A stretch of 64,000 nucleotides of DNA from Candidatus Tanganyikabacteria bacterium (lineage in GTDB: Bacteria > Cyanobacteriota > Sericytochromatia > S15B-MN24 > VGJW01), in the NCBI GenBank assembly GCA_016867265.1, contig VGJW01000005.1:62001-126000 (forward strand), read 5' to 3'. The position numbers and the translations under genes were made by a program. Shown piece by piece: positions 26,893 through 30,430 of this stretch. Each line of letters opens with the position of its first letter. Position 1 is the stretch's first letter. The notes under the pieces are model-generated. The model saw only the letters and a program-made list of their open reading frames with translations. It was not told the origin of the DNA and did no database searches.

Positions 26893-27954
26893 ATGCGTGC
26901 GACTGTGGTGGTGCCCCTGCTGGTGGCCTTGGCCGGTGGCCGTTGTCAGGATGCTCCGCCGCCGGATAGCCGCGAGGCCCAGGTGGCGCGGGGCCAGGCC
27001 GCGTATGCACGGACCTGCGCGATCTGCCATGGCCGCGCAGGCGAAGGTTACGCAGCCGACAATGCCCCGGCACTCGCCAACGAGGATTTCCTCGTCACCG
27101 CGTCCGACCAGTATCTCTACGAGACCATCGCCCGCGGACGGCCGGGCACGGTGATGTCCGGTTGGGCCAAGGAACACGGGGGGCCCTATGACGAGGGGCA
27201 GGTGCAGGACCTCGTGGCCTGGTTGCGTTCGTGGCAGAAGGGAACGATGCGGCCGCTCGATCAGGCCCGATTGCAGCCCGGCAGCCACGACGGCAAGGCC
27301 CTGTATGTCCGCCACTGCGCCTCCTGCCACGGTGCAGGCGGCATCGAGGGCCCGTACAACCGACTGGCCCATCCGCAGTTGCTGGATATCGCGTCGGATG
27401 GCTTCCTGCGCGCCAGCATCGTGGAAGGCCGGTCGGGCACGCCCATGAAGGGTTTCCGTGGCTTGTTGCAGCCCGCCGAGGTCGACGCCATCATCGCGTA
27501 CCTGCGCCAGAACCCGGCTCGGGTTCCGGCCGTAGGACGGCCGGCGGCGACGGCCAGCGCCACCGTGGCCCTGCCGGTCGGTGGGGAGCCCGCGTTCCCC
27601 GGGGATGCCCGGTTCATCGGCGTGGACCTGGCAGCCCGCGAGATGCGCCGCGGGGCGCGGATCCTGTTCGTCGACGCCCGGCCGCCCTCCGATTTCCAGG
27701 CAGGCCACATCCGCGGGGCCGTCAACCTGCCCTTCTACGAGGCTCCCGAGCGCGCAGGCGAGATTCCGAAGGGCACCTGGGTGCTCACGTACTGCGGCTG
27801 TCCGCATGCCGAGTCCGGCGAGGTGGCGGGCGTCCTGCGCGGTCGCGGGCACGACCGGGTCGCCGTCCTGGATGAGGGATGGGGACCCTGGAAGACGCGG
27901 GGCTACCCTGTCGAAGAGCCGCCGGCGTCAGCATCGTCGGGAATCGGGCCCTGA
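26893..27954 (+). CDS. Exported dihaem cytochrome c-rhodanese fusion protein
   Basis: 353 residues. A short signal sequence (about 1-18) is followed by two cytochrome c domains, with haem sites CAICH (Cys42, Cys45, His46; likely Met88 ligand in GTVMSGW) and CASCH (Cys142, Cys145, His146; likely Met185 ligand in GTPMKGF). After a linker comes a rhodanese domain (about 240-342) with VDARPPSDFQAGHIRGAVNLP and active-site Cys301 in TYCGCPHAE. A second Cys (303) lies two residues later. Such a fusion could couple thiosulfate, persulfide or sulfane sulfur chemistry to electron transfer in the periplasm; this is inference. Its stop overlaps the start of the next lipoprotein gene. Confidence 0.88.
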   Translation: MRATVVVPLLVALAGGRCQDAPPPDSREAQVARGQAAYARTCAICHGRAGEGYAADNAPALANEDFLVTASDQYLYETIARGRPGTVMSGWAKEHGGPYDEGQVQDLVAWLRSWQKGTMRPLDQARLQPGSHDGKALYVRHCASCHGAGGIEGPYNRLAHPQLLDIASDGFLRASIVEGRSGTPMKGFRGLLQPAEVDAIIAYLRQNPARVPAVGRPAATASATVALPVGGEPAFPGDARFIGVDLAAREMRRGARILFVDARPPSDFQAGHIRGAVNLPFYEAPERAGEIPKGTWVLTYCGCPHAESGEVAGVLRGRGHDRVAVLDEGWGPWKTRGYPVEEPPASASSGIGP

Positions 27955-29144
27955 TGGATCCTGTCCGTCGCCTGTTGTTGCTGGCCGTGTCACTCGCAGC
28001 CTGCACGGTCACGCCGCCCGTACAGGCGCCTGCCGACGTCGGGCCGGCCGCGGGGCACGACGCAAGCCATCCCGTTCCGACGCCTGTGGCGAACACCCCG
28101 GTCACGTCCGTTCCCGCAGCAAGACTGGCCCCCGGTGATACGGGGCCGCGGGATGCCCATCACTTGTGGGTCATGGGTACCGGGACGTCGGCGAGCACCT
28201 ACTGCTGGATACCTGAATTCCACGCGTGGCAGGTCCTCGATCCCGTGAAGGCGGGCCTGCCCAACCTGCCCGTTGGCGCTTGGGTGGGCAGCAGGCCTGG
28301 CGGGGAGGCCGAGCAGGCCTGGGCGGAGGAGGTCTTCGGCGGCGTGTACGTGGCCAAGTACGAGGCCAGCCATGAGGATGCCGTGCCGGGCGATCCCCGT
28401 ACCGGTGCCGGCGCGGTCGCGGGCACGTCGGGGCGGGTCAAGTCTGCGGCCCTTTGCCCCGTCTGGTCGAATGTCCATTGGGATGACGCCTTGGCCTTGG
28501 CCCGCAGCGTGGGGCCGGAGGCCGATCTCATGGGTGATGAGGACTGGACGGCCCTCGCCGTCTGGTCGGCCATTCATGGCGTTCAGGTGCTTGGCAACAA
28601 CAGCGGCGGGACCTTCCGCGATGTGACGGATACGACGGTGCGCTTCCTGGCCCCGCCTGCCTTCCCCACATCCGGCGTCGCCTTGACGGGGTCCGGCCAC
28701 GGCGACGCCTGGCCGTACGGTGTCGATCGCACGACGCACACGGGCCTGGTCGCCGGGGTTGCCGACCTTAACGGCAATCTCGAGGAATGGACGGCCGATG
28801 TTGCCGTGGGGGGTGGTCCCGGCGTGCCGGGTACCTGGCTGTTGCGGGGCGTCGCGTCGGGTGTCCGCGTGCCCGTCGTACAGGGGGCGGCCAGCGCCAT
28901 CAACAGCCTTGCGACCTCGCCGGAGTTGCGTCGCTTTGGCCTGCCGGCGACCCTCGGGGACTCCGCCTTGCCGGCCTTTGACTTCGACCACGCCATCCAT
29001 GACGGCAGTACGGGCGTCCGGGCCATGCGCGGGGGAGGGTTCTACGATGTCGCGCGTGCAGGCGTGTGGCACATGCACCTGACCCGGCGTCACGACTTCG
29101 CCAACCAATACTTCGGCTTCCGCGTCGTCCTGCGCTATCGGTGA
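27954..29144 (+). CDS. FGE/SUMF1-fold lipoprotein
   Basis: 396 residues from the ATG that overlaps the previous TGA. A lipoprotein signal with lipobox LAAC (Cys16) is followed by a Pro/Val-rich linker to about residue 60. The rest has the formylglycine-generating-enzyme/C-type-lectin-like pattern: GGVYVAKYEASHEDA, LMGDEDWTALAVWSAI, DLNGNLEEWTADV and a C-terminal RGGGFYD...YFGFRVVLRY. The catalytic cysteines of true FGE are not evident near the C-terminus, so a binding or other role is likelier than formylglycine formation. Co-translation with the cytochrome-rhodanese protein suggests a shared envelope task. Confidence 0.75.
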   Translation: MDPVRRLLLLAVSLAACTVTPPVQAPADVGPAAGHDASHPVPTPVANTPVTSVPAARLAPGDTGPRDAHHLWVMGTGTSASTYCWIPEFHAWQVLDPVKAGLPNLPVGAWVGSRPGGEAEQAWAEEVFGGVYVAKYEASHEDAVPGDPRTGAGAVAGTSGRVKSAALCPVWSNVHWDDALALARSVGPEADLMGDEDWTALAVWSAIHGVQVLGNNSGGTFRDVTDTTVRFLAPPAFPTSGVALTGSGHGDAWPYGVDRTTHTGLVAGVADLNGNLEEWTADVAVGGGPGVPGTWLLRGVASGVRVPVVQGAASAINSLATSPELRRFGLPATLGDSALPAFDFDHAIHDGSTGVRAMRGGGFYDVARAGVWHMHLTRRHDFANQYFGFRVVLRYR

Positions 29145-29176: not shown

Positions 29177-30430
29177 ATGGGACAGTTTCGTGTTCGTTTT
29201 CATGCCTTGCCCGCTGCGGCCCTTGTCGTCGCGTCCTGCGGGACCCTCGAGGTGCCGTCCCGCCCCGTTGCCGGGGGCACGCAGCAAGTAGCCTCCGCTG
29301 GCGAGACGCGCCTGCTCGTCCGCTGGCAGGCCGAATCCGCAGCCCTGGGCATGGCGGGTCTCATCGGCGCGAAGGGATGGCAACGCGCTGCCCGCCAATC
29401 ACAGGACCTCCTCGTGGAAGGTTGGGTGGCGTACGAGGGACCGGCCGGCACGGCCTCGGACCTGCGCCGGGCACTTTCGGGCCGAAAGGCCGTGTTGGCC
29501 GTCAGCGGGGTGGGCCGGGTCGGCACGGGGCCCGAACGACCCGAGCCGGTGCCCGGTATCGCCGCTGATCCGGGCGTTCGCCAACAGTATCACCATGCCT
29601 TGCTGCGCACGGCCTCGGCCCACGCCATCACGCGAGGGCGCCCGGACATCGTGGTGGCCGTCGTCGATACCGGAGCCGACATCCTTCATCCCGACTTCGC
29701 GGGGCGTGGTGGCGCCAGTCGGGTCGTCGCCGGCCGTAACCACCTCGATGGTGGCAGCGATCTTACGGATGGCACGGGGCACGGGACGCATTGCCTCGGG
29801 GTCGTGGGGGCGACGGCGGGCAACAACATCGGGGTCGAGGGCATGGCGCCCGAGACGGGCCTTCGTGCGGAACGGGTGCTCGATGCGCGCGGGCAGGGGA
29901 CGTGGGAGTCGGTCGCCAGCGGCATCCTGGCCGCTTCCCGCGCCGGAGCCCGGGTCATCAGCCTGAGCTTGGGCGACACCTACAGCGCACCTGTCCTCGA
30001 GCAGGCGGTGACGGCTGCGCAGTCCCGCGGCGCCCTGGTGGTCGCCGCGATGGGCAACTTCGGCGATGCGCGGCGCGTTTATCCGGCGTCGCTGCCCGGT
30101 GTTCTGGCTGTCGGGGCGACCAACCAGCAGGACCAGCGCACGGGCTTTTCCTGCCAAGGGCCTTGGATTGGCATCGTGGCGCCCGGCATGCAGATTTACT
30201 CCACGCTGCCACATACGGGTCGCTATGCCTACGGCTACATGTCGGGAACGTCGATGGCCGCGCCGATGGTTTCGGGTCTTGCGGCCCTCGTGATGGCCCG
30301 GCATCCCGCGTGGACCGTCGAGCAGGTCGCACGGCGCATTCGCGAGTCCGCACGCGACCTCGCGGAGCCGGGCTTCGACGTGCAGACCGGGAGCGGTCGG
30401 ATCGACCCCGTGGCGGCCCTGGCCGATTAG
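29177..30430 (+). CDS. Subtilisin-like (S8) serine protease lipoprotein
   Basis: 417 residues. Lipobox VASC (Cys21) in the N-terminal signal. An N-terminal domain of about 120 residues (inhibitor/propeptide-like) precedes the S8 catalytic domain with Asp164 (VVDTGADILHPDF), His202 (GHGTH) and Ser359 (SGTSMAAP); the oxyanion Asn is in AAMGNFGD. All catalytic residues are intact. The protein ends just after the catalytic domain. It is 32 bases downstream of the FGE-fold gene and may be co-expressed. Confidence 0.94.
   Translation: MGQFRVRFHALPAAALVVASCGTLEVPSRPVAGGTQQVASAGETRLLVRWQAESAALGMAGLIGAKGWQRAARQSQDLLVEGWVAYEGPAGTASDLRRALSGRKAVLAVSGVGRVGTGPERPEPVPGIAADPGVRQQYHHALLRTASAHAITRGRPDIVVAVVDTGADILHPDFAGRGGASRVVAGRNHLDGGSDLTDGTGHGTHCLGVVGATAGNNIGVEGMAPETGLRAERVLDARGQGTWESVASGILAASRAGARVISLSLGDTYSAPVLEQAVTAAQSRGALVVAAMGNFGDARRVYPASLPGVLAVGATNQQDQRTGFSCQGPWIGIVAPGMQIYSTLPHTGRYAYGYMSGTSMAAPMVSGLAALVMARHPAWTVEQVARRIRESARDLAEPGFDVQTGSGRIDPVAALAD

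Follow-up and report, generated by a model that had tools for sequence, protein, structure and literature searches.

A dihaem cytochrome c-rhodanese fusion with a Cys-x-Cys active site, conserved in myxobacteria, and its possible role in passing thiol or sulfane-sulfur electrons to c-type haem

The fusion gene and its surroundings

The stretch of DNA analysed here (the window; 64,000 nucleotides, G000:C5:62001-126000) belongs to a draft genome of 2.85 Mb that is 98.2% complete. It contains an intact ORF with an ATG start, which is preceded at about 10 nt by the purine-rich sequence GGGGAG and encodes a protein of 353 amino acids (Table 1). The Pfam models for c-type cytochromes (PF13442/PF00034), Cytochrome_CBB3 (75.6 bits) and Cytochrom_C (65.8 bits), each match two stretches of the protein above the curated cut-off, and both stretches have a CxxCH motif and a candidate distal Met. 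A rhodanese superfamily domain (PF00581) with an active-site Cys follows in the same chain, with the codons of C301 and C303 at 27793-27795 and 27799-27801, respectively. Neither an FAD domain nor a signalling domain was found in the chain with Pfam. The arrangement described in the original prediction, two CxxCH haem domains with candidate Met ligands and then a rhodanese domain with Cys301 and Cys303, is confirmed in one chain by the Pfam matches and by conservation among 72 family members.

Table 1. Features of the fusion gene, its downstream neighbour and related loci in the window's genome and others (positions are those of the window unless a locus or contig is named)
Feature	Position	Strand	Evidence
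Dihaem cytochrome c-rhodanese fusion gene	26893..27954	+	ORF, Pfam, homologues
Signal-peptide-like N-terminus, C18 at lipobox position	26893..26952	+	Sequence
Haem 1 motif C42-A-I-C45-H46	27016..27030	+	Pfam; invariant 72/72
M88, candidate distal ligand of haem 1	27154..27156	+	Invariant 72/72
Haem 2 motif C142-A-S-C145-H146	27316..27330	+	Pfam; invariant 72/72
M185, candidate distal ligand of haem 2	27445..27447	+	Invariant 72/72
Rhodanese domain, residues 249-334	27637..27894	+	PF00581 53.2 bits, cut-off 22.2
Rhodanese active site Y300-C301-G-C303-P304	27790..27804	+	Y300, C301, C303, P304 invariant 72/72
Probable lipoprotein, weak FGE-sulfatase match	27954..29144	+	FGE 14.7 bits, below cut-off 23.3
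CxU rhodanese-mono-haem cytochrome c, candidate selenoproteins	L167:1108-2010, L175:1117-1965	-	Two genomes of the window's taxonomic order
tRNA-Sec, anticodon TCA	G000:C11:42536-42628 (L154)

The N-terminus of the fusion protein, MRATVVVPLLVALAGGRC, resembles a short signal peptide. This signal-peptide-like stretch, expected of the exported chain that had been predicted, was still there on re-inspection, and we infer that the fusion protein is exported. A Cys is aligned with C18 in 60 of the 71 alignment rows, and a loose lipobox pattern is present in 50 of 73 loci. Lipid anchoring of the window protein itself is uncertain because its '-GGRC' is an atypical lipobox with Arg before C18, which fails the loose pattern.

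The stop codon of the fusion gene overlaps the start codon of the next gene (TGATG at 27952-27956), which encodes a probable lipoprotein. Translational coupling to an FGE-fold lipoprotein had been put forward; the overlap is real, while the FGE match lies below its cut-off and no such neighbour recurs. The latter result comes from 22 neighbourhoods that were read, in 21 of which the fusion gene was recognised by gene calling (it was missed at L058). Among these 21, no neighbour family occurred in more than six loci, and the family present in six, which reads like a protein kinase, is not adjacent to the fusion gene. The fusion gene stands alone, without a conserved operon, and the downstream lipoprotein is probably not a conserved partner; the FGE-like neighbour was dropped as a clue to function since the neighbours do not recur. 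After the lipoprotein gene lies a subtilase gene at 29177-30430 (PF00082, 173.5 bits).

Distribution, conservation and other unions of the two modules

A first scan of named genomes yielded two full-length homologues, both from Polyangiaceae drafts, with identities of 38 and 41% (alignment A1); full-length relatives overall are 35 to 47% identical to the window protein. In one myxobacterial class, 120 of 317 genomes had a match at an E value of ≤1e-30. Full-length relatives (E ≤ 3.3e-88) were present in 107 of the 317, a count that includes G066, whose match is cut off by a contig end, and the other 13 matching genomes had weaker, split or incomplete matches only (best E above 1e-80). Of 377 genomes sampled from the phylum, 68 had a match at E ≤ 1e-60, and 30 of the 68 came from outside the class set. 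The 107/13 split and the 30 of 68, like the 63 rhodanese matches (22 and 41) described below, were counted by eye from tables. The fusion gene is present more than once in several genomes. No second full-length fusion was found in a search of 59 genomes that included the window's own, and a plasmid search returned 38 records with partial matches, none of which reached 80% coverage.

The dihaem-rhodanese fusion forms a conserved family in myxobacteria, and the window's genome encodes one member of it; the architecture is not rare (107/317 genomes of one class). Full-length homologues in more than 100 genomes indicate that the observation is more than chance. The AroC encoded just upstream of the fusion shares 67% identity with that of a genome of the same family, and the contig looks native to the window's genome; on these data and the homologues, we reject a one-off or an assembly chimera. 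In the rhodanese-domain tree, the window sequence falls within the fusion group with a support of 80 and on a long branch, a topology with which horizontal transfer into the window's genome would be compatible but which is not proof of it.

The conservation set was obtained from 86 loci with a member by removing identical sequences and L071, which is cut by a contig end, and contained 72 distinct sequences. The haem-binding residues and candidate distal ligands (C42, C45, H46, M88, C142, C145, H146, and M185) were invariant in all 72, as were D261, R263, Y300, C301, C303, P304, S308, E328, G329, and W333 of the rhodanese part. The 16 further members that come from beyond the class set all keep two CxxCH motifs and YCxCP, and 15 of the 16 have both Met sites by a loose pattern. 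This invariance indicates strict selection on the two haems and the two redox cysteines alike.

The two modules are also joined in the opposite order. In G007 and G008, a CxU rhodanese is followed by a single haem domain, with Pfam matches above the cut-off, and these fusions belong to a different clade of the rhodanese-domain tree from the window's. The dihaem-CxC form occurs in Myxococcota and in the window's genome, and the CxU-monohaem form occurs in the window's taxonomic order. The start of a ResA/TlpA-like gene (L202:2572-3102, minus strand; model matches below the cut-off) lies within the end of the G008 fusion gene, an overlap seen at this locus only. In the myxobacterium G087 (L142:7701-8825, G087:C67), the modules are encoded unfused and side by side: the first gene specifies a dihaem cytochrome whose N-terminus is lipoprotein-like, and the second a CxC rhodanese with a signal-like N-terminus of its own.

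Among 63 rhodanese matches from 18 genomes of the window's class, with four loci that had been fetched twice entered once, a haem fusion was found in 3 of 22 CxC/CxU rhodaneses versus 0 of 41 others (Fisher p 0.039, a weak value given that the query profile was built from the CxC/CxU group and that the rows are related by descent). The other 19 of the 22 are exported-looking CxC/CxU rhodaneses without haem.

Dihaem cytochromes without a rhodanese were also observed. Two of them, about 40% identical to the haem part of the window protein, lie in a cluster of G009 (L128:2318-11627, G009:C22) that, from its sequence, reads like a periplasmic molybdopterin oxidoreductase of the nitrate-reductase type with ferredoxin-like and molybdenum cofactor genes.

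The Cys303 position as a selenocysteine site in relatives

Among the rhodanese models of NCBIfam, NF041203, rhodanese-related (seleno)protein, matches the window domain best (44.5 bits; cut-off, 115), and the same model is the best for eight relatives, at 51.8 to 88.5 bits and likewise below the cut-off. The model and the window protein share a single rhodanese domain with YCx[U/C], which is YCGC in the window and YCxU in six relatives, and they differ in that the 126-position model has no haem domain. NF041203 is given as a CxU selenoprotein in a table of one review (PMC13188914).

Six exported-looking rhodaneses of the window's class (G002, G004, G007 with two genes, G008, and G010) have an in-frame TGA exactly at the Cys303 position, with the motifs YCTU, YCAU, and YCSU. 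A SECIS-like hairpin with up to 7 pairs and a 5-nt loop containing GUG lies at +17 to +36 after the UGA. At least five of the seven pairs, including the inner four, can form in 5 of the 6 UGA genes; the corresponding values are 1.9% for positions in the flanking DNA and 2 of 16 for Cys forms. In G008, 3 of the 7 pairs are in register and the hairpin has to include a bulge. Two of the pairs are changed on both sides, and the covariation score was reached by 17 of 500 shuffles.

Consistent with these sites, tRNA-Sec scored above the cut-off in all five genomes with a UGA form, and ARAGORN assigned the anticodon TCA in G002, G004, G007, and G010. The same holds for the window's genome, which also encodes a separate exported rhodanese in the Cys form (YCTC), and the window's organism probably makes selenoproteins. 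In G006 and G009, no UGA form was found and the best match was a tRNA-Ser below the cut-off. The Cys303 position is probably redox-active, because UGA occurs there in relatives together with the SECIS-like hairpin and tRNA-Sec.

All seven myxobacterial genomes tested had tRNA-Sec above the cut-off, with a weak score in G373 (50.4 bits). No dihaem fusion member examined has UGA at the Cys303 site, although tRNA-Sec scored above the cut-off in 8 of 8 genomes checked, 6 of which carry the fusion. A UGA in the fusion gene of G146 was considered as a Sec form and rejected, being an ordinary stop after the last residues.

Known systems and possible function

Several known systems resemble parts of the fusion protein. 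CcoP- and QcrC-type dihaem cytochromes have two tandem CxxCH domains, and CcoP and QcrC chains are among the PDB matches. However, the window protein scores far below the cut-offs of TIGR00782 (48.7 bits versus 179.95) and NF050122 (47.8 bits versus 200), has a rhodanese domain, and is not encoded next to oxidase or bc1 genes at the loci read. FccAB, flavocytochrome c sulfide dehydrogenase, oxidizes sulfide with a dihaem cytochrome c and a redox-active cysteine pair, FccB being the FAD protein, whereas the window chain has no flavin domain and no FAD subunit appears as a recurrent neighbour. TsdA and SoxAX are c-type haem enzymes that oxidize sulfur compounds and have a Cys-ligated haem. In contrast, the window family has Met at both candidate distal positions in 72 of 72 sequences, and the SoxX model gave 21.5 bits against a cut-off of 61. 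The classical thiosulfate sulfurtransferase loop is CRxGx[R/T], but the window loop is CGCPHAES, and the GlpE and PspE models reached only 18.2 and 17.2 bits against cut-offs of 102. In SQR-rhodanese and rhodanese-persulfide dioxygenase fusions, the rhodanese is joined to a sulfur-oxidising partner (PMC13047784), which is a flavoprotein or an MBL dioxygenase and not a cytochrome as in the window protein. No description of a rhodanese-cytochrome c fusion was found in the literature searched, including the parts consulted of PMC13047784 and PMC13188914, in agreement with the earlier remark that the domain order was not that of a described enzyme. The dihaem-rhodanese fusion is apparently undescribed, and it is a new functional combination of known domain families.

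Rhodaneses are usually viewed as redox-neutral sulfur carriers. From the sequence features described above, we tentatively propose, with a likelihood that we place somewhat short of even, that the fusion protein is an envelope-bound thiol/sulfane-sulfur:cytochrome c oxidoreductase in which the Cys301/Cys303 pair passes electrons via the haems to an oxidase. The substrate bound by the rhodanese-fold domain would be either a protein thiol or a sulfur compound in reduced form, and the cysteine pair would cycle between a dithiol (or persulfide) and a disulfide. Each of the two high-potential His/Met haems in that chain would then accept one of the two electrons, and the haems would relay them to cytochrome oxidase. 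His/Met haems normally have potentials of +200 to +350 mV and cysteine disulfides have potentials well below zero, so that flow from thiol to haem would be downhill, whereas such haems lie much too high in potential for the reverse step, the reduction of a cysteine disulfide. The presence of two haems would also fit a two-electron donor. Direct electron transfer, this direction of flow and this class of substrate are what we infer; an AlphaFold prediction on a three-row alignment (mean pLDDT 55.7, pTM 0.38) was too low in confidence for a Cys-haem distance.

The suggestion that electrons pass from a sulfur compound to c-type haem is indirectly favoured by the Sec at the Cys303 position in relatives, the reverse-order CxU fusions, the split pair of G087, and the overlapping ResA/TlpA-like gene. 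Thiosulfate, named originally as one possible donor, is less likely because the CRxGx[R/T] loop is absent and no relative of one SQR-like protein was found in the window's genome at E ≤ 1e-20. The query was one flavoprotein of G003 that is called SQR-like from a reading of its sequence, and other SQR types could escape it. SoxZ also had no match in the window's genome, a result that is uninformative since the control search had no match anywhere either. A Sox or SQR route, the subject of the check proposed with the original prediction, gained no support from these searches of the window's genome.

As for sinks and sources, the window's genome has one COX1, clustered with COX2, a dihaem cytochrome c, and SCO1. 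In addition, genes for TusA, a DsrE2-like protein, a YeiH-like transporter, and a rhodanese/MBL-fold protein, which may be a persulfide dioxygenase, are clustered at L201:5194-9293 (G000:C10). Sulfane sulfur is probably handled in the window's organism, as judged from this cluster.

The same cluster would suit a different explanation, in which the two modules have independent functions and share one tether. The rhodanese would move or detoxify sulfane sulfur, sulfide or cyanide near the oxidase, the dihaem part would be an ordinary carrier, and no electrons would pass between the domains. Each module does exist alone, as seen in the two G009 cytochromes and in the 19 haem-free CxC/CxU rhodaneses. 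However, the classical loop is replaced by CxCPHxxS with the second Cys at the Sec position of relatives, and the modules are joined in both orders; we consider this explanation unlikely, though it is the strongest of the alternatives.

Slightly less likely still is a protein-thiol oxidase, in which the Cys(Sec) pair would swap disulfides with thioredoxin-fold partners of the ResA/TlpA type and deliver electrons to cytochrome c, serving disulfide making or envelope thiol balance and not inorganic sulfur. Cys/Sec pairs are typical of thiol oxidoreductases, and the ResA/TlpA-like gene that overlaps the CxU rhodanese-cytochrome c gene of G008 points the same way, but such a neighbour was seen at that one locus, and no widely recurring neighbour stands beside the dihaem fusion. 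A redox or sulfide sensor, in which the haem/Cys state would signal to another protein without enzymatic activity, would suit a stand-alone gene that lacks conserved pathway neighbours and is present in more than one copy in several genomes, but it is improbable given that the chain has no signalling domain and that the residues needed for turnover are all invariant.

If the proposed oxidoreductase is real, a widespread myxobacterial family would give electrons from sulfur compounds or thiols a new route into respiration that requires neither flavin nor Cys-ligated haem. A broader and distinctly more doubtful extension is a flavin-free family of sulfide/persulfide:cytochrome c oxidoreductases, in which Cys-x-Cys or Cys-x-Sec would make the rhodanese fold a redox enzyme that delivers electrons directly to c-type haems in both domain orders, and which would link selenium, sulfane sulfur, and aerobic respiration in the envelope. 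Which atom carries the chemistry could readily be tested in the CxU relatives. The selenocysteine link adds interest beyond the original observation, and the architecture itself is less unusual, being common in one phylum.

A further exported rhodanese family, with the motif YCGCPHHLS and a C-terminal domain of about 100 residues, was found at L144:6898-7635 and at L162, L165, L166, L168, L170, and L174; in the one member tested with Pfam, this C-terminal domain had a weak carboxypeptidase-regulatory-like match.
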